DNA from: Verrucomicrobiota bacterium
Lineage (GTDB): Bacteria > Verrucomicrobiota > Verrucomicrobiia > Limisphaerales > JAHEOI01
Length of the DNA stretch: 34,957 nucleotides
Direction of reading: 5' to 3'
Assembly: GCA_018610125.1 (NCBI GenBank)
Contig: JAHEOI010000344.1
Span: 1-34,957, forward strand
Position numbers and translations under genes: made by a program. The notes under the pieces are model-generated. The model saw only the letters and a program-made list of their open reading frames with translations, was not told the origin of the DNA and did not search any database. Shown piece by piece: positions 391-34,957 of the stretch (positions are counted from its first letter, which is position 1; every line of letters starts with the position of its first letter).

Positions 391-540
391 GACCTCGGGG
401 AAGAAAACGACTTGGCCGGTCAGTATCCGCAGCGGGTTGATCGGATGCGCCAACGATTCGAGAAATGGGAACGGGACGTCAATGCCGATGCCACGGCTCA
501 GCCCAAAGAGAAGTTGACCCCGCCGGAATGGCTGCGATGA
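391..540 (+). pseudogene. C-terminal remnant of a sulfatase (arylsulfatase-like)
   Basis: Frame starting at 391 reads DLGEENDLAGQYPQRVDRMRQRFEKWERDVNADATAQPKEKLTPPEWLR*, like the C-terminal tail of sulfatases; in-frame TAA at 385-387 immediately upstream and no recognisable sulfatase body. Confidence 0.55.
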
Positions 541-605
541 CCCGGCACCAAGTCCCGTTTGAGATGACCTGACAGCGAGCCAACATAGATGGAAAATAGC
601 AAGGG

Positions 606-3600
606 ATGAACGAGTCAAACGCAAGGAGCTTGAAACGAGTAAGTAAGGGGTTACGAAAATGCCGCGCTGGCGGGGCGTTTTCGCTGTCCCTGCTCGGTTT
701 TTTGGCTGGTCCGGTTTTGGTGACGGGGGAGTCGCCTCAGCAAATCGATTATAACTTTGATATTAAACCGATCCTTTCTGACCGCTGTTATGCCTGCCAT
801 GGACCGGACGAGGGCGCCAGAAAGGCCGATCTTCGACTCGACAAGCAGGAAGGACTCTTTTCCGAGCTTGAAAATGGGCGTCAGCCGATCCAGCCCGGCA
901 ATCCCAAAGCAAGTGAGGTTTACCGACGGATCACAGCTGAAGACCCGGATTATCGGATGCCGCCACCGAGCTCCAACCTCGAATTGAGCTCGAAGGAGAT
1001 AGCCCTGATCCGCAAGTGGATCAAGCAAGGGGGCGAATGGAAGCCGCATTGGGCCTTTATCCCGGTCGAGCGTCCCAGCCTGCCTCCGGTCGAAAATGAA
1101 GACTGGGTAAGAAACCCGATCGATCGGTTTGTGCTCGCGCGGCTTGAGGCGGAAGGGCGAGAGCCGGCTCCCGTGGCCGACAAGGCCCAATTGGCTCGGA
1201 GGGCTACCTTTGGCTTGACCGGCTTGCCGCCCACTGTCCGGGAAGTCCGTCACTTCCGCAACAATCAATCACCCGATGCTTACCCTCGACTCGTCGATCG
1301 ACTTTTGGCCTCACCGGCTTATGGAGAGCGCATGGCGGTGGCCTGGCTCGATTTAGCCCGATACGCCGACACGCATGGATACCATTCCGATGAATATCGC
1401 CGCACATGGCCTTGGCGCGATTGGGTGATCGACGCCTTTAATCGGAACATGCCGTATGACCGGTTTGTGACATGGCAGCTTGCCGGTGACCTCTTACCGA
1501 ATGCCAATCAAGAGCAAAAATTGGCGACGGCATTCAACCGGTTGCATCCACAAACCAACGAGGGCGGGGTCGTGGAAGAGGAATTTCGAGTCTCTTACGT
1601 GGCCGACCGGGTGGATACGTTTGGAAAGGCCTTTCTCGGACTGACGGTTAAATGCGCCCGCTGTCACGACCACAAGTTCGACCCGATTTCCCAGAAGGAA
1701 TATTACCAGCTCTTTAGCTTTTTCGATAACATTGATGAGACTGGTCAATACTCCTTCTTTACCGACGCAACCCCGCCTCCGACGTTGCTGCTTTCCGATG
1801 ATCAAGAGGAGAAGAAGCTGGCGGATTTGCGTAAGGCGATTAAAGAAAAGGAATCCGAGGCTTCCGAGCTGAGGCAAAAGTTATGGCCGGCATTCCGGAA
1901 ATGGCTCAAAGAGGAGAACGCGAGCGAGGTCCGACCTCCACCGGGAGTAGGCGATTTTCGGCTGGATAAAATCGATGGGAAGAAGGTCAAGAACCATGCC
2001 AACCCGGAAACACCGGGCAAGTCGGGCGATAGTCCCAAGCTGGTCCCAGGCGTAAGGGGCAAAGCGGTCAAATTGAATGGGGAGAACGGGCTCGTCTTTG
2101 ACAAGTTGGGTCGGTTTAGTCGGACAGATCCCTTTTCACTGAGCCTTTGGGTAAAACAGACGCAGCCGCTCGAGAACGCGGTGTTGGTGCACCATACGCG
2201 TGCCGGTATCGATGCCGGGAACCGGGGATATGAGGTCTACCTGGCTCATGGCCGGATTGCGGTGAGTCTGACCCATATGTGGCCGTATAACGCGATTAAG
2301 CTTAAGAGCCGTCGCACGCTGCCGGTCGGTGAGTGGGTCCATTTGACGATGACCTACGATGGCTCGAGCAGGGCCGAAGGACTTCGGCTGTATTGGAACG
2401 GCAAGAAAGCGAAAACGGAAACCATCCGGGATAATCTGTTTAAGGATATTCTTTATAGTGGGAGTGGTGTTCCCTTGAAGGTCGGCCAGCGGTTCCGAGA
2501 TCATGGATTCAAAAACGGTGTGGTCGATGAGATCAAGCTCTTCGAGCGTAAGCTGACACCGCTTGAGGTCCGTGACATCAGAGGGGGGGAAGATATGGCA
2601 AGCGTTGTCGAGCAAGCCCAAAAGGGGGAGCTATCGGATAAGAAGCGCCAGTGGTTGTTTGACTATTACTTGCTAAACGAAAGCTCTGAATATCGAGACT
2701 ATTTGGAGCAATTGAGAGCCCTGCGGTCTGCCGAGAATGAGCTTGTCAATGAAATCCCTGAAATCATGGTCATGGAGGAAATGGACGAGCCAAGGCCGAC
2801 ATATTTCCTCAAGCGGGGGGCTTACGATGCCAAAGGAGAACGGGTCCACCCTGGGACCCCCAAGGCGGTGATGCCGTTTAATAAGGAGAGATTCGCTTCA
2901 AATCGCTTGGGCTTGGCGCGATGGCTGACCGACCGAAAGAATCCGCTGACGGCAAGGGTTGCGGTGAACCGGTACTGGCAGATGCATTTTGGCCGGGGAC
3001 TGGTCCCGACGCCCGCGGATTTTGGGAGTCAAGGCGACTTGCCGTCGCATCCGAAGTTGCTCGACTGGCTGGCGGCCGAGTTCATGGAATCGGGCTGGGA
3101 TGTTAAAGGGTTGCATCGACTGATTGTGACATCAGCAACCTATCGGCAATCCTCGAAGACCGATCCGAAATGGCGGAAAAAGGACCCCAAAAACGAGCTA
3201 TTGGCTCGGGGACCGAAGCAACGGTTGTCGGCGGAGATGCTTCGGGACCAGGCATTGGCTGCGGGCGAGCTCTTGACCAGGAAGATTGGCGGTCGGGCAG
3301 TGAAGCCTTATCAGCCGAAAGGGCTTTGGAAAGAGAAATCGGGAAAGACATACAAGGAAGACAAGGGGGCTGCTCTCTATCGGCGAAGCATCTATTCCTA
3401 TTGGAAACGTACCTCCCCGTTACCGAACATGTTGATCTTTGATGCCGCCAGGCGGAGCCATTGTGTCGTGAAACGGCAAGAAACGACGACGCCGCTCCAA
3501 GCGTTGGTGCTGTTGAATGATCCGCAATTTGTGGAAGCCTCCCGGAAAATGGGTAAGCGCATGCTGACAGAGGGGGGTAAGACGGTTGAGGCGCAAATCC

Positions 3601-3836
3601 GATTCCTTTTCCGCTTGGTAACAAGCCGTTTGCCAAATGAGCAAGAGCTTAAAAATCTCGAGGCACTCTACCGAAAACAGAGGGCGCGATTTGAATCCAA
3701 TCCGGAGAAAGCGAAGGCATTCTTAAAGGTTGGGCAGAGCGGCTATGATGACAGGCTCCGGTTGTCGCGCTTGGCAGCGGCTTCGGTGCTGGCCAATGCC
3801 TTGCTGAATTTTGATGAAGCGGTCGTGCTGCGATAA
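606..3836 (+). CDS. PSD1 / DUF1549-DUF1553 domain protein with planctomycete cytochrome C-like (CxxCH) N-terminus and internal LamG-like domain
   Basis: 1076 aa ORF; CYACHGPDEGARKADLRLD, NPIDRFVLARLEAEG, ARYADTHGYHSDEYR, CARCHDHKFDPISQKEYYQL, NRYWQMHFGRGLVPTPADFGSQG motifs. Confidence 0.92.
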   Translation: MNESNARSLKRVSKGLRKCRAGGAFSLSLLGFLAGPVLVTGESPQQIDYNFDIKPILSDRCYACHGPDEGARKADLRLDKQEGLFSELENGRQPIQPGNPKASEVYRRITAEDPDYRMPPPSSNLELSSKEIALIRKWIKQGGEWKPHWAFIPVERPSLPPVENEDWVRNPIDRFVLARLEAEGREPAPVADKAQLARRATFGLTGLPPTVREVRHFRNNQSPDAYPRLVDRLLASPAYGERMAVAWLDLARYADTHGYHSDEYRRTWPWRDWVIDAFNRNMPYDRFVTWQLAGDLLPNANQEQKLATAFNRLHPQTNEGGVVEEEFRVSYVADRVDTFGKAFLGLTVKCARCHDHKFDPISQKEYYQLFSFFDNIDETGQYSFFTDATPPPTLLLSDDQEEKKLADLRKAIKEKESEASELRQKLWPAFRKWLKEENASEVRPPPGVGDFRLDKIDGKKVKNHANPETPGKSGDSPKLVPGVRGKAVKLNGENGLVFDKLGRFSRTDPFSLSLWVKQTQPLENAVLVHHTRAGIDAGNRGYEVYLAHGRIAVSLTHMWPYNAIKLKSRRTLPVGEWVHLTMTYDGSSRAEGLRLYWNGKKAKTETIRDNLFKDILYSGSGVPLKVGQRFRDHGFKNGVVDEIKLFERKLTPLEVRDIRGGEDMASVVEQAQKGELSDKKRQWLFDYYLLNESSEYRDYLEQLRALRSAENELVNEIPEIMVMEEMDEPRPTYFLKRGAYDAKGERVHPGTPKAVMPFNKERFASNRLGLARWLTDRKNPLTARVAVNRYWQMHFGRGLVPTPADFGSQGDLPSHPKLLDWLAAEFMESGWDVKGLHRLIVTSATYRQSSKTDPKWRKKDPKNELLARGPKQRLSAEMLRDQALAAGELLTRKIGGRAVKPYQPKGLWKEKSGKTYKEDKGAALYRRSIYSYWKRTSPLPNMLIFDAARRSHCVVKRQETTTPLQALVLLNDPQFVEASRKMGKRMLTEGGKTVEAQIRFLFRLVTSRLPNEQELKNLEALYRKQRARFESNPEKAKAFLKVGQSGYDDRLRLSRLAAASVLANALLNFDEAVVLR

Positions 3837-3984
3837 AGGGCCGACAAGGGTAAAAGAAGAGCGTTACTGATCGGCCAGTTGTTGGAGGGTACCAAGACGG
3901 TGGGGTGAGCTGTAAGTGACCGCGGTTCATTGGTATCCCCATGCAAGAATTTCCTGAACGATTCATACGGAAGAAAGGCTTAAT

Positions 3985-5457
3985 ATGGCGACAAATGATA
4001 TGAGCGGTTGCGGCAGTTTCAACTTCGAGATGAATCGAAGAGATTTCTTCTCACGGTTCGGCTATGGCCTGGGCGGGATGGCGCTCGCTCACCTATTGGG
4101 GGATTCGGTGAGCGCGTCAAGCGTGCTGTCGGATATGGCGGCCTCCGGGGCGGCATTGGATGCGCCCCACTTTGAGCCGAAGGCAAAGCGCGTCATTTAC
4201 CTCTTTCAGAGCGGCGGTCCGTCGCAGCTCGACTTGTTCGACTATAAGCCGCTGCTTAATGAAATGAACGGGCAGGATCTGCCCGACTCGGTCCGGATGG
4301 GACAGCGGCTGACCGGCATGTCCGCGAACCAAGCGTCGTTGCCGTTGGCGGGGTCCATCTTTGACTTCAAGCGCCGGGGAAAATCCGGTGCCTGGGTGAG
4401 TGACCTATTGCCCTATACAGCGGGGATTGCCGATGATCTCTGCTTTGTGAAATCGCTTTACACGGAAGCGATCAATCACGATCCGGCCATGACATTCTTT
4501 CAGACCGGGGCGCAACAGCCCGGTCGGCCCGCCATGGGATCTTGGCTTAGCTATGGACTCGGTAGCGAGAACGCCAACCTGCCATCCTTTATCGTCATGA
4601 TCTCCAAAAACGGGTCCGGCCAGCCACTTTATTCCCGGCTTTGGGGTAACGGCTTTCTCCCCTCGAGTCATCAAGGGGTGCAATTCCGGGCAGGGAAGGA
4701 TCCGGTGCTTTATCTTGGCAACCCTCCCGGGATTTCCATGTCGAGCCGGCGTGAAGTAATGGATCATTTGGCGCGCCTGCACGAGCAGCAGTACCAGGAT
4801 TTGGGTGATCCCGCCATCAACTCACGCGTCGCTCAATATGAAATGGCTTTCCGGATGCAGACTTCGGTCCCCGAAGTGATGGACACCTCGGATGAGCCGG
4901 AAGCCATTCTGGACATGTACGGGGAGGATGCACGGAATCCCGGCACTTACGCGGCCAACTGCTTATTGGCGCGTCGGCTTGCTGAACGTGGAGTGAGATT
5001 CATTCAGCTCTACCATCAAGGATGGGATCACCATGGGGGATTGCCGAACGGTATTCGATCTCAGAGCAAGAAGACAGACCAAGCATCGGCGGCACTTATC
5101 AAAGACCTCAAGCAGCGTGGCCTGCTCGACGATACAATCGTCATATGGGGTGGCGAATTCGGTCGGACTAACTATTCCCAAGGCGCGCTGACGGAAGACA
5201 ATTACGGACGTGATCACCATCCGCGTTGCTTTACCCAATGGATCGCCGGGGGTGGATTCAAGCCTGGAATAAGCTACGGCGAAACCGATGAATTCGGTTA
5301 CAATGTCGCGAGGAATCCGGTGCATGTGCACGATCTTCAAGCCACCCTGCTGCAGCAGCTCGGTATCGACCACAAGCGCCTGACCTTTAAGCATCAAGGG
5401 CGGCGTTATCGTTTGACCGACGTCGGCGGTCACGTGGTCAACGAGATCATTTCCTGA
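3985..5457 (+). CDS. DUF1501 domain-containing protein
   Basis: 490 aa; N-terminal [22 protein letters not shown] (Tat-like), [53 protein letters not shown]; directly downstream of the PSD1 gene, the usual pairing. Confidence 0.93.
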
Positions 5458-5726: not shown

Positions 5727-7013
5727 ATGGTCACAATGGTAACGAATCGGAGCTGGATTGGCGTGTGGTTTCTCGCCGGAGCGATGGGGATGGCGACGTC
5801 TGCAGAGGCGTTGGATTGGCCGCAGTGGCAAGGACCCGATCGCGATAATAAGTCGGACGAAACGGGGTTGATGCAGCAATGGCCGGAAGGCGGTCCGGAG
5901 ATGGTCTGGAAGGCTGACGAGCTCGGGGGAGGTTATACGACTCCTTCGGTGGCGGATGGCCGAGTCTTTGGGATGGGCTATGAACGCGCCTACGAAGTGG
6001 TCTGGGCTCTTGACGAAGAGACCGGCGAGACACTCTGGAAGACGCGTAACGGACGTGCCAATCGGAATATCAGAAAGGAGGAGGGACCCCGATGCACGCC
6101 CACGGTTGATGGGGACCGAATTTACACCTTGAGCGTTGGCGGGCAGCTCGTCTGCTTCAATGCGACCAATGGCGAGGTGATTTGGCAGCGTCACCTTAAA
6201 GAGGACTTTTCGGGGAACATGATGTCAGGGTGGGGCTATTCCGAATCACCCCTGATTGATGGCAACAAGTTAATCTGCACACCGGGTGGTCCGGAGGGAA
6301 CGCTGCTGGCACTGAACAAAAAGACGGGCAAGCGGATCTGGCAAAGCCAAGAATGGACCGATGATGCCGCTTATTCTTCAATTATTGTTCGGGAGTGGAA
6401 CGGTTTCCGGCAATACATTCAGCTCACCGAAAAGCATGTGGCCGGTGTTGCCGCTGAGGATGGAAGCGTATTGTGGCAGGTGCCGCGCGATGGGAGCAGT
6501 CCCGCTGTGATCCCCACCCCTGTCGCGGAGGATCATAAGGTCTATGTGACCTCCGGCTATGGTGTGGGCTGTAACCTTTTCGATGTGAGCCACCGCGGCG
6601 GAAAATTCATGGCTGAAGAGGTGTATTCGAATAAGGTGATGGACAACAAACACGGTGGCGTCGTGCTGGTGGATGGTTATATCTATGGATACTCCGATGG
6701 GAGGGGATGGGTCTGCCAAGATTTCGATACCGGAGAGATGGTCTGGCAGGAGCGGGATAAGCTCCGCCGCGGCTCAATCACCTACGCGGATGGCCGGCTT
6801 TATCTAAGGAGCGAAGGCTCCAAGGGGACTGTGGTTCTCGCCAAGGCGACACCGGAAGGGTATCGTGAGACAGGGCGATTTCAGCAGCCTGACCGCAGTG
6901 ACAAGAGGAGCTGGCCTCATCCTGTGGTCGCCAATGGGAAGCTCTTCTTAAGGGACCAAGGGATCTTGCTTTGCTACGACGTCTCAAAGAAGAAGGAACT
7001 GAGCATGCGGTAA
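5727..7013 (+). CDS. PQQ-binding-like beta-propeller repeat protein (secreted)
   Basis: Repeated W-x-G-type blades (DWPQWQGPDRDNKSDE, VWALDEETGETLWKTRNG, VCFNATNGEVIWQRH); track ORF begins at 5601 but the signal-peptide-like start MVTMVTNRSWIGVWFLAGAMGMATSAEA is at 5727. Confidence 0.88.
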   Translation: MVTMVTNRSWIGVWFLAGAMGMATSAEALDWPQWQGPDRDNKSDETGLMQQWPEGGPEMVWKADELGGGYTTPSVADGRVFGMGYERAYEVVWALDEETGETLWKTRNGRANRNIRKEEGPRCTPTVDGDRIYTLSVGGQLVCFNATNGEVIWQRHLKEDFSGNMMSGWGYSESPLIDGNKLICTPGGPEGTLLALNKKTGKRIWQSQEWTDDAAYSSIIVREWNGFRQYIQLTEKHVAGVAAEDGSVLWQVPRDGSSPAVIPTPVAEDHKVYVTSGYGVGCNLFDVSHRGGKFMAEEVYSNKVMDNKHGGVVLVDGYIYGYSDGRGWVCQDFDTGEMVWQERDKLRRGSITYADGRLYLRSEGSKGTVVLAKATPEGYRETGRFQQPDRSDKRSWPHPVVANGKLFLRDQGILLCYDVSKKKELSMR

Positions 7014-9569: not shown

Positions 9570-10019
9570 TTAACTGCTCTGGAACGAGGCGCGGTCGTCG
9601 GCCTCAAGCCACTCAAAGAGGGTGGTCGAGGCCGGGTCCAATCCAAGCTTGCGACATTCCTCCGAGAACCATTCACGCTTTTCGGGGTCGTCGTAGAGGC
9701 TTACCTTTTCCATCTGATCGGACCATTCTTGGATTTCGGCGTCGCTTTTCGGAGTGCCGTTTTGCTTCAGCCACGTGACGACCTCCTCATCGCTTGAGGT
9801 GTTCGCAACAGCCTGTTTGAGCTGGACGCCGTCAATCCCCTTGAATTCGAACAGGTTTTGATCGAGCGGGCAGTCGTACTTGTACTCCCCAAGGGTGCCG
9901 GCCATTTCAGCACGGCATTTATCGATCGTTCGCCCCAGCACGACGAATCCGCCCAGACGTTCCCGGGGACTACGTGGTGGCGCTTTTGTCAGGTCTTTTG
10001 TTTTGGTTTCAAATGCCAT
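9570..10019 (-). CDS. DUF5069 domain-containing protein
   Basis: MAFETKTKDLTKAPPRSPRERLGGFVVLGRTIDKCRAEMAGTLGEYKYDCPLDQNLFEFKGID, characteristic DUF5069 N-terminus. Confidence 0.85.
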   Translation of the reverse strand: MAFETKTKDLTKAPPRSPRERLGGFVVLGRTIDKCRAEMAGTLGEYKYDCPLDQNLFEFKGIDGVQLKQAVANTSSDEEVVTWLKQNGTPKSDAEIQEWSDQMEKVSLYDDPEKREWFSEECRKLGLDPASTTLFEWLEADDRASFQSS

Positions 10020-10192
10020 AAGCTTTTCTTGTGCTCGTTCGTTTCGTGAATGATTGATGACAGATCGCGGTCACTTATTCCAATCTGCTCTGCAGTCGTT
10101 TCCGAGGATGCTCTCGTCGATACCGGAATTCAATGAGAACGTTATCCCGGTAAGTCGTCAAGCGCAGCGAAAGGAACGGGGAGGGCGGAAGA

Positions 10193-10233
10193 CCAAAACT
10201 TGACACAATTGCATCAAATTTTGTTGGACAAGG
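10193..10233 (+). promoter_or_regulatory. Copy 1 of a 41-bp upstream element (contains TTGACA)
   Basis: CCAAAACTTGACACAATTGCATCAAATTTTGTTGGACAAGG; 37/41 identical to 27805-27845; 56 bp upstream of tdh start. Confidence 0.6.
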
Positions 10234-10288
10234 AATCCGGTGTGGTTCGATTTTGGGAGCAAAACAGGTGGCAAGAGGAGATCGACAA

Positions 10289-11317
10289 ATGAAGGCACTG
10301 GTCAAGAGGAAGGCGGAGCCCGGATTTTGGCTGGAGGAGGTCCCGGAGCCCGAGCTCGGGTTGAACGACGTGTTGATCCGTGTTGATCGGACGGGGATTT
10401 GCGGTACGGACCTGCACATTTACAACTGGGACGAGTGGGCCCAAAAGACCGTGCCGGTGCCACTGATCGTCGGCCACGAATTTGTCGGTGAGGTCGTCGA
10501 GGTCGGCTCGAATGTTAAGGATTTCTTTCCGGGGGACCTGGTCAGCGGCGAGGGCCATGTGGTATGCGGGCGATGTCGGAATTGCCTGGCTGGGAGGCGG
10601 CACCTCTGTGCCGAGACAAAGGGCATCGGGGTGAACCGCCCGGGGGCCTTTGCCGAATATTTGGTGCTTCCCATGACCAATGTTTGGCACCACGCCCCGT
10701 TTATTGAACGGGATATCGGTGCGATCTTTGATCCGTTCGGCAACGCCGTGCATACGGCGATGTCGTTTCCCGTATTGGGTGAGGATGTCCTCATAACCGG
10801 TGCCGGTCCGATCGGGGTAATGGCGACCGCGGTGGCTCGTCATGCCGGTGCCAGGCATGTGGTCGTGACGGATGTCAATCCGACCCGACTGAAGCTCGCT
10901 AAAAAGGTCGGTGCGACGATAACCTTGGACGCACGGCATGACACGATTGCCGAGATGCAAAAGACGCTCGGCATGAAAGAAGGATTCGACGTGGGTCTTG
11001 AAATGTCCGGAAATGACAATGCGTGTCGAGACATGATCGCCAATATGTGTCATGGGGGAAAGATTGCGATGCTCGGGATTCCGGACAACGAGATGAAGAT
11101 TGATTGGCAGACGGTGGTATTTAATATGCTGACGATCAAGGGGATTTATGGGCGGGAAATGTACGAGACCTGGTATAAAATGACAGTGATGCTTGAGTCC
11201 GGTCTGAATATTTGGCCTGTCATTACCCATCGTTTCCATTACACAGAATATGAAAAGGCGATCGAGGTCATGAAATCGGGGCAATCCGGCAAGGTGCTCC
11301 TCTATTGGAAGGATTAA
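10289..11317 (+). CDS. tdh: L-threonine 3-dehydrogenase
   Basis: [84 protein letters not shown] zinc site; adjacent to kbl. Confidence 0.96.
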
Positions 11318-32986: not shown

Positions 32987-33063
32987 CGGGGCGTAGCGTA
33001 GCCTGGAAGCGCGCTTGAATGGGGTTCAAGAAGTCGCCGGTTCGAATCCGGCCGCCCCGACCA
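32987..33063 (+). tRNA. tRNA-Pro(GGG), CCA encoded
   Basis: Folded by eye: acceptor CGGGGCG/CGCCCCG, D-stem GCGT/GCGC, anticodon stem CTTGA/TCAAG with loop ATGGGGT (anticodon GGG), T-arm GCCGG-TTCGAAT-CCGGC, discriminator A, CCA. Confidence 0.95.
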
Positions 33064-33593
33064 CTGCTTCAGATCCCACCGGATTCCATTATCAGCTCGA
33101 CCTTCCAGAAGGTTCAGGTCCTTCAGGATGACGACCGGAACCTTTTCCTGGCATTCTTCCTGGCCGTTGGTGCGGGTTTGCGCAAGAACGAGATTGCTAG
33201 GGCGCGCTGGGAGTGGATCACGGAGGTTGATGGGCAGCTTTGGTGCCAGACCGATGAGCTTGGAAAGGATGGCCAGCCCATCTCCGTCCCGATCATCACA
33301 GGGCAGGAGCAAATCGGGCAGTTTCGGAAGGACACGGGACCAGTCCTTGAAGGGCACAAGACCGAAGCGATCGAGGGGTCTTCCGTCGTATCGGGTCACT
33401 GATGGGGGAGCTCGGCTGGCAAACTCAAAAGCGCATCCACGAGCTACGGGCCTGGGCAGGAAGCAAGGTCCTCGAGCGCTACGGGGTCTACGAGGCAAGC
33501 CAGTTCCTCCGCCACAAAGACGTGCGAACGACCCAGAAGTATTACCTCCGCTATATCCAGATGAAGGGACTCAAGGTCGAGATGCCGGGGTGA
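33064..33593 (+). pseudogene. Tyrosine recombinase/phage integrase, N-terminally truncated and frameshifted
   Basis: Frame 1: LFLAFFLAVGAGLRKNEIARARWEWI (catalytic Arg block); frame 0: FRRIGSLMGELGWQTQKRIHELRAWAGSKVLERYGVYEASQFLRHKDVRTTQKYYLRY (HxLR, LRHKD, Tyr). The two halves are in different frames (shift near 33345-33370) and no core-binding domain precedes them. Confidence 0.82.
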
Positions 33594-33645: not shown

Positions 33646-34278
33646 TTACCTGCACGATCGTTCGTGAAGCCACCTTCGGATGAAATTGATGAATTCGGCC
33701 ACCGGCATCATTTCTAAATCCTTTTCTCGAAATCCCTCCCTCTGCCTGTCTTGGTAAAAATCTGCCATGAACTCGTTAAAAAAACTCCAGATCTGAGTTC
33801 CGCTGGGAATGTTTTTGTCCCCCGTTTGCACGAACCAATTTCGCACTTCTAACACAAGATTCTCCGGATCGTTATTATGACTCTTGATATCGGAACCTGA
33901 AAGGTCCGAGAGTGCTTGTTGGTAGGTATAGGGCTCTTTTTCGAGAATGAGACAGCACCTCTTTGCCGCTCCGCGCTTTGAGAGGCGATAGCCCATGTCT
34001 AACCCAAGTTCAAATGGCATGTTAAGCCGAAAGACTTCATCTTTTTCTTGCGCTTTAATACGAGACAAATCGTGTATACTCAACGAAGATTTACTTATGA
34101 GCTCGACGATTTTTGAAATGCGTGCTTCGCCTGAGTCGAACCGCTCCGACGCGATACGTGGGTCATAGCCGGCGCAAACAACCGTAAAAAGGAGCGGTCG
34201 AAGAAGCGGAATGTAATCGTCGTCGAAAGGACAGTTGATGAAAACGTTAGTGGGAGATTTCTTGCCTCCTCGGCTCAT
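33646..34278 (-). CDS. TIR-like Rossmannoid protein (hypothetical; putative defence effector)
   Basis: 210 aa: NVFINCPFDDDYIPLLRPLLFTVVCAGYDPRIASERFDSGEARISKIVELISKSSLSIHDLSRIKAQEKDEVFRLNMPFELGLDMGYRLS; N-terminal VFINCPFD strand, SLSIHDLSR strand and NMPFELGL helix with a conserved-looking Glu parallel the TIR layout. Confidence 0.65.
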   Translation of the reverse strand: MSRGGKKSPTNVFINCPFDDDYIPLLRPLLFTVVCAGYDPRIASERFDSGEARISKIVELISKSSLSIHDLSRIKAQEKDEVFRLNMPFELGLDMGYRLSKRGAAKRCCLILEKEPYTYQQALSDLSGSDIKSHNNDPENLVLEVRNWFVQTGDKNIPSGTQIWSFFNEFMADFYQDRQREGFREKDLEMMPVAEFINFIRRWLHERSCR

Positions 34279-34502
34279 TTCTCTGGCTTACTCCACTTGT
34301 CGATCGAGCCGTCTTTTCGATGCACGATGACGTCCCAATCGTTGGATGCAATCTTCTTGGCTCCCTTTACGGCCGCCTGTTTATTCGCGTAGATCCTGCT
34401 CGCCCTTGTGGTTCCCTCTTTCTTGACCGCCCACTGATCCTTTCTGGAGATCACATGCACCCTTTTCGCATTTCTTTTCGCGCTCTTTCTTGCTGTTTTC
34501 AT
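34275..34502 (-). CDS. DUF2188 domain-containing protein
   Basis: MKTARKSAKRNAKRVHVISRKDQWAVKKEGTTRASRIYANKQAAVKGAKKIASNDWDVIVHRKDGSIDKWSKPEK: VHVxxRxDxWAVKxEGxxRAS...A...A.......VIVHxxDGxI pattern; track ORF overextends to 34736; ATGA overlap with TIR-like gene. Confidence 0.8.
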   Translation of the reverse strand: MKTARKSAKRNAKRVHVISRKDQWAVKKEGTTRASRIYANKQAAVKGAKKIASNDWDVIVHRKDGSIDKWSKPEK

Positions 34503-34587
34503 GCTCACACCTTCTTCAAAATATCGCCGAATCACGCGATTGCCAATCCTCCGTTGCCACCCTGCTTGTTTTGTTTGACATCCCGCG

Positions 34588-34615
34588 TTTATGCCGGCAA
34601 ACTTGCCGGCATAAA
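34588..34615. promoter_or_regulatory. Perfect 13-bp inverted repeat (2-bp spacer) in the divergent DUF2188 / BrxA-like intergenic region
   Basis: TTTATGCCGGCAA-AC-TTGCCGGCATAAA; each arm contains the self-palindrome TGCCGGCA. Confidence 0.8.
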
Positions 34616-34957
34616 TGGCAGCACCCTTCCCAGAGAGCTTGGGCTTCCGAGTGGGTGATCGGGGAACCCATACGAGTCGGACCTTGATGCTGAAGGAGTT
34701 GACGGCGTTACTGGCCGTCTGCCCTTCCGAGGCCACCCGCGACGATTATTGGCGGGCAGTCGTCGAGGAGAACGTTCTAGACAAGGCGACTGCGTCAACG
34801 AGGCGATGGACGGTTCAGAGGCTATCGGAGCTGTATGCTTTGGACCTCTCGGTTGTCATCTTCCGGGGCCTACGCTTTTTCCGAGATCGGGATCCGAATT
34901 CAGTGCCTTTGCTCGCCCTGTTGTGTGGTCTGGCCCGTGACCCTTTGCTGCGGAACA
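34615..34957 (+). CDS. BrxA-like (DUF1819-like) protein, N-terminal part, truncated by window edge; likely first gene of a BREX-type locus
   Basis: Open frame to the edge: MAAPFPESLGFRVGDRGTHTSRTLMLKELTALLAVCPSEATRDDYWRAVVEENVLDKATASTRRWTVQRLSELYALDLSVVIFRGLRFFRDRDPNSVPLLALLCGLARDPLLRN. VEENVLxKxTxSTRR...RLxELYxLD...PLLALLCxLARDPLLR recalls DUF1819/BrxA relatives. Start uncertain (in-frame TAA at 34612). Confidence 0.55.
   Translation, partial: MAAPFPESLGFRVGDRGTHTSRTLMLKELTALLAVCPSEATRDDYWRAVVEENVLDKATASTRRWTVQRLSELYALDLSVVIFRGLRFFRDRDPNSVPLLALLCGLARDPLLRN

Follow-up and report, generated by a model that had tools for sequence, protein, structure and literature searches.

A palindrome at the start of brxA

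The window analysed here, 34,957 nucleotides long, is the whole of contig G000:C344 from a Verrucomicrobiota metagenome assembly (72.6% complete, 0.21% contamination). At its right edge lie the first codons of brxA, a gene of the bacteriophage exclusion (BREX) system, together with a perfect palindrome that we propose as the brxA operator. The brxA frame opens with the ATG at position 34615 on the forward strand and continues for 114 codons without a stop to position 34957; because the window is the whole contig, its end truncates brxA and the DNA further to the right cannot be read. The product matches the PADLOC BrxA model PDLC02450 over residues 7–113 (E 3.6e-43) and a second PADLOC BrxA model (E 1.9e-26), and it falls within a BrxA clade with support 100/99. 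Its nearest relatives are encoded on two acidobacterial metagenome contigs (63% and 60% identity). A sequence-only reading of the window had taken the frame for BrxA (DUF1819), which is borne out by the match to PDLC02450. The check proposed with it, a profile search against DUF1819, fails formally despite the strong PADLOC match, as Pfam PF08849 (BrxA, formerly DUF1819) scores 15 bits (E 0.021), below the cut-off of 23 bits. An NCBIfam search of the 114-codon product gave nothing useful. We consider the identity of the frame as brxA to be virtually beyond doubt, and take it as the first gene of a BREX operon. Taken alone, this find is ordinary: a new BREX locus, and an incomplete one.

The palindrome, TTTATGCCGGCAA-AC-TTGCCGGCATAAA (34588–34615), consists of two fully complementary arms of 13 bp around a 2-nt centre, and it ends on the A of the brxA ATG. 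The palindrome core, GCCGGCAANNTTGCCGGC, occurs as one exact copy in the 3.7 Mb genome, which rules out a repetitive extragenic palindromic (REP)-like repeat element. A scan of positions 34500–34957 for terminators found none. A -35-like TTGACA box is located on the forward strand at 34575–34580, 18 bp before the core, and the -10 region would accordingly fall inside the palindrome; the -10-like CAAACT is weak (3/6), and a promoter scan of 34500–34957 did not list this promoter.

Conservation of the palindrome within one BrxA clade

In a first round, the core was found at brxA, with at most three mismatches, in 15 of 37 loci, compared with 10 of 1025 length-matched background stretches from the same loci. 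In a maximum-likelihood tree of 36 BrxA sequences, the 15 palindrome loci form one side of a single branch (support 100/99), and the other 21 are without the site. When 320 genomes of the order were searched subsequently, 14 more BrxA sequences were obtained, four of which belong to the clade (support 99/99). The palindrome is present in each of these four and in none of the ten outside the clade. These 14 loci were collected after the rule relating palindrome and clade had been formed, with tree placement and site scan performed in one script and not formally blinded. In total, the palindrome is present at or near the brxA start in 19/19 clade loci and in 0/31 others (50 loci), and its distribution corresponds to one change on the BrxA tree. 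Because the loci are related by descent, the Fisher value for this comparison, 3e-14, is not to be read as a probability. Clade members occur in Acidobacteriota and on an Azospirillum plasmid.

The consensus of the sites is GCCGGC-AAAYYW-GCCGGC or its reverse complement, in which the inner CGGC/GCCG is invariant and the outermost core pairs co-vary. Of the four clade loci added later, L124 and L125 required a relaxed form of the pattern: the site of L124, GCCGGCTGGTTTGCCGGC, has two mismatches to the core, and that of L125, TTTGACGGCAAACCAGCCGTCAAA, has four, its arms having changed together. L125 exceeds the three-mismatch limit of the first round, and was counted for its symmetric arms and for the form GACGGC..GCCGTC that it shares with L107; L130, outside the clade, has four mismatches too, but its arms are not symmetric. 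Within the site the information content is 1.64 bits per base, compared with 0.15 in the flanks, which no longer align with one another, while pairs of clade BrxA proteins go down to 38% identity. Given this difference despite such divergence of BrxA, the site is apparently under selection. It is conserved, lies near a promoter-like box and is specific to the operon, as would be expected of an operator, and the comparison of loci makes it very likely that the palindrome is a conserved regulatory site. The 18 bases of the core offer a means of recognising BREX operons of this clade. In L003, brxA (9926–10432) has just 168 codons though the palindrome is intact; a frameshift or a decayed copy is possible.

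Elsewhere the core is rare. It occurs exactly in 11 of the 388 genomes of the phylum, with three sites directly at brxA and eight inside long reading frames (e.g. dnaK), and the reversed control pattern occurs in 4 of the 388. A scan of 2.9 million viral contigs for the pattern alone located the core in 64 stretches, two of which (L050 and L056) have it directly before brxA; scanned by BrxA alignment, the same collection contained only four BrxA loci. Variant palindromes were found in 26 stretches in two viral-contig scans, none with brxA. BrxA was not found in a phage collection, and a search of viral contigs with one BrxA protein returned nothing. L056 carries the palindrome in two copies, which flank a TTGACA promoter-like box before brxA (6718–6799). 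A second palindrome, GCCCAGGC..CCTGGGC, near brxA in L111, L129, L131 and L134, was discarded as a candidate; it sits within the reading frame.

The position of the palindrome relative to TTGACN boxes falls into a few recurring distances. The box starts 17–18 bp before the core in the window and in L016, L017 and L018 (TTGACA at -17 in the latter three), 22–23 bp after the first base of the core in L003, L106, L108, L109 and L126, and 33–35 bp after it in L002 and one L056 copy. The palindrome thus covers the -10 region in some loci and in others closely precedes the -35-like box (in a second class about one helical turn further away), and it is downstream in a few. Such recurring distances are what one would expect if a protein site were positioned with respect to RNA polymerase.

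Candidate binders of the palindrome

We hypothesize that BrxA of this clade binds the palindrome and autoregulates the BREX operon, a proposal that we regard as evenly poised. The narrower statement, that clade BrxA would be a sequence-specific autoregulator recognising GCCGGC-AAAYYW-GCCGGC at its own promoter, is a shade less probable, and repression rather than activation is, overall, a possibility that we hold more tentatively. The sequences themselves establish the identity of BrxA, the conservation of the palindrome, its association with one BrxA clade and its recurring positions relative to promoter-like boxes; from these we infer an operator role for the palindrome, BrxA as its binder and a repressive sign. 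BrxA, a monomer with two helix-turn-helix (HTH) units in opposite orientation, would bind the near-symmetric GCCGGC-AAAYYW-GCCGGC, and a site in which one half is strict and the other looser would suit two units turned by 180 degrees. In the window, bound BrxA would stand in the way of RNA polymerase at the -10/start region. Free BrxA would set the level of BREX, and recruitment of BrxA to the BREX complex or to invading DNA would relieve the operon.

The solved BrxA is a DNA-binding monomer with two HTH units turned by 180 degrees (PMC9240713), and the L002 protein of the clade appears to share its fold. For a model of the L002 BrxA (mean predicted local distance difference test, pLDDT, 83), the top three structure matches are the solved BrxA of E. 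fergusonii, 7ZGE (two chains), and 3bhw, with the recognition domain of BpuJI at rank 9. The similarity to 7ZGE (PMC9240713) is nearly gone in sequence (E 0.27), and no solved structure was matched by sequence at an E value below 0.01; 7ZGE is also without a known specific site. Residues typical of the clade include Q79, present in 18/19 clade proteins and 0/31 others, and K163 (17/17 and 4/30). These two lie in the pair of helices equivalent to the recognition helices of the HTH units, and K163 aligns, in a weak alignment, with K147 of 7ZGE, which has been superposed on a DNA-contact residue of BpuJI (PMC9240713).

The known operators of BREX are those of BrxR in Acinetobacter (PMC9122589) and E. 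fergusonii (R-BOX1/2; PMC9122601). Like the palindrome, they are inverted repeats located at BREX operon promoters. They are imperfect repeats of 10–11 bp, 5 bp apart, located before brxR and bound by a WYL protein (PMC9122589, PMC9122601), with a weaker second operator before brxA in the E. fergusonii system (PMC9122601). In contrast, the element described here is a near-perfect palindrome with a 2-nt centre, situated directly at brxA and with no WYL gene alongside. Upstream of brxA in the window there is no WYL regulator, the two upstream genes encoding a DUF2188 protein and a 210-residue protein without a Pfam match.

Several observations weigh against BrxA as a repressor acting at this site. 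Co-inheritance of the genes in a BREX operon means that any of the core BREX proteins would show the same association with the palindrome as BrxA does, and descent alone predicts clade-typical residues, which makes Q79 and K163 supporting rather than decisive. E. fergusonii BrxA shifted lambda DNA at 250–500 nM, with no specific site shown (PMC9240713). The promoter boxes are consensus matches only, and the location of the site upstream of the -35-like box in L002, L003, L106, L108, L109, L126 and one L056 copy fits activation equally. In addition, the outer arms vary in sequence and are nevertheless symmetric beyond chance, a symmetry that a plain protein site does not need: outside the 18-mer, arm bases are complementary at 76 of 140 positions, compared with 51.5 expected when partners are shuffled, and at 49 of 98 compared with 34.0 in a thinned set (p ~0.0007).

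The strongest alternative is that the palindrome is a BREX operator bound by another protein, namely BrxB, BrxC, PglX, PglZ, BrxL or a regulator encoded elsewhere. We consider this doubtful, though a serious contender: the BREX operators characterized so far are bound by the separate protein BrxR, the shared inheritance just mentioned does not separate the BREX core proteins, and in L018 an HTH-like gene is apparently divergent upstream of brxA, judging by sequence alone. Conversely, no regulator gene common to the clade was found beside brxA among the loci examined, and the clade is spread over Acidobacteriota and the Azospirillum plasmid. A general host regulator is unlikely because the exact core is single-copy in each of the three clade genomes scanned (the window's own, G060 and G170).

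The element might also act as a folded strand, either as a DNA cruciform or as a hairpin in the mRNA leader, instead of as a double-stranded protein site. The excess symmetry of the outer arms would be explained in this way, as would the arm changes that compensate one another (GACGGC..GCCGTC, ACCGGC..GCCGGT), and the folding score of the single strand is good (z -4.1). Yet the inner CGGC/GCCG is invariant in sequence, the loop is found in either orientation with respect to brxA, and the range of positions from upstream to downstream of the -35-like box would leave the element untranscribed in many loci. We therefore regard a folded strand as improbable, and the varying loop orientation and promoter position rule out an mRNA leader hairpin as the sole explanation. 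That the palindrome is functionless, neutral baggage inherited with brxA would agree with its confinement to one clade by a single change, but is hardly credible given the contrast in information between site and flanks at BrxA identities down to 38%.

BrxA is a core BREX protein that is required in some systems and dispensable in others, and a regulatory role for it has only been mentioned as not ruled out in a 2026 survey (PMC12839542). Our literature searches retrieved no report of a BrxA operator. If true, autoregulation by BrxA would, according to the literature searched, give a BrxA its first defined DNA target and BREX a control circuit that works without BrxR. It would also be a possible account of how BREX loci that lack BrxR are restrained once they have been transferred to another host. 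With a conserved candidate site and many relatives, the role of BrxA becomes directly testable, and the palindrome likewise makes a statement on BREX control testable.

A probable BREX operon across contigs and the putative adjoining island

The sequence-only reading had further proposed that a BREX locus starts at the edge of the window. The BrxA match and the gene order of relatives speak for this. In L002, and also on long stretches from eight further genomes of the phylum, brxA is followed by a gene of ~185 codons and then by one of ~1150 codons; the order brxA-brxB-brxC is found in relatives where the sequence continues (L002 among them), and pglX, pglZ and brxL are present in relatives scanned (brxL in L020). 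Within the 72.6%-complete assembly, brxB has not been recovered, as neither BrxB nor PglZ was found with the Pfam models, nor has BrxC, which would fall in an assembly gap. No second BrxA was found in the window's own genome.

Fragments of pglX and pglZ of matching PADLOC subfamilies are present on a separate contig of the same assembly, C118 (L139; 5429 bases), where pglX is represented by its 3' end and pglZ by its 5' end. On its minus strand the order is the C-terminal 261 residues of PglX (PADLOC PDLC02528, E 4.6e-95), a 935-residue AAA-ATPase (PADLOC Ppl, E 2e-142), a 426-residue Schlafen/AlbA_2 protein, and the N-terminal 170 residues of PglZ (PADLOC PDLC02566, E 4.5e-62), the remainder of which lies past the contig end and was not recovered; the two genes in the middle lie within 507–4598. 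Schlafen-type proteins are reported BREX-linked effectors (PMC12839542). The PglX piece is closest to the versions of L017, L018, L016 and L014, and the PglZ piece to those of L014, L018 and L016; all four loci have a BrxA of the window's clade. The simplest reading is that C344 and C118 represent one type 1 BREX operon split by the assembly, with ~7 kb absent that would hold the remainder of brxA, brxB, brxC and the first part of pglX, a linkage that we infer across contigs. This genome almost certainly contains a type 1 BREX locus. It resembles type 1 BREX (brxA, brxB, brxC, pglX, pglZ, brxL) in its BrxA, in the subfamilies of its pglX and pglZ fragments and in having relatives with the ordered set, and differs in that the window holds part of brxA only and that C118 has the Ppl AAA-ATPase and the Schlafen/AlbA_2 protein between pglX and pglZ. 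In some relatives, TIR-type proteins are encoded between brxC and pglX: those of L017 (7049–8092) and L018 (9731–10756) match PADLOC spbK, and that of L014 (8487–9557) was recognised by its start sequence only.

To the left of brxA, a tRNA-Pro(GGG) gene predicted by ARAGORN (32987–33063, plus strand) is directly adjoined by what we take to be the remnant of a broken tyrosine recombinase (integrase; 33064–33593, plus strand), with weak Phage_integrase matches in two frames. Because this remnant adjoins the tRNA, the region is probably a tRNA-Pro integration island, with the tRNA gene as its left border and the BREX operon inserted beside it. The two genes between the remnant and the palindrome are both on the minus strand. 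The DUF2188 gene (34275–34502; Pfam PF09954, E 7e-13; PADLOC PDC-S16, E 2e-13) is divergent from brxA, and its end is overlapped by the gene for the 210-residue protein (33646–34278). This protein, with VFINCPFDDDY and MSRGGKKSPTNVFINCPFDDDY at its N-terminus, matched no family in Pfam or in PADLOC, TIR models included. The divergent pair had been regarded initially as DUF2188/TIR-like and as a BREX accessory. We abandoned this assignment, since the other brxA loci scanned, many of which have only ~1.5 kb of flank, yielded no copy of either protein, and the 210-residue protein lacks a PADLOC TIR match. Relatives of the 210-residue protein are encoded on alphaproteobacterial plasmids of Sphingomonas, Bradyrhizobium and Rhizobium, and on a Sphingomonas plasmid a different small protein precedes the relative.
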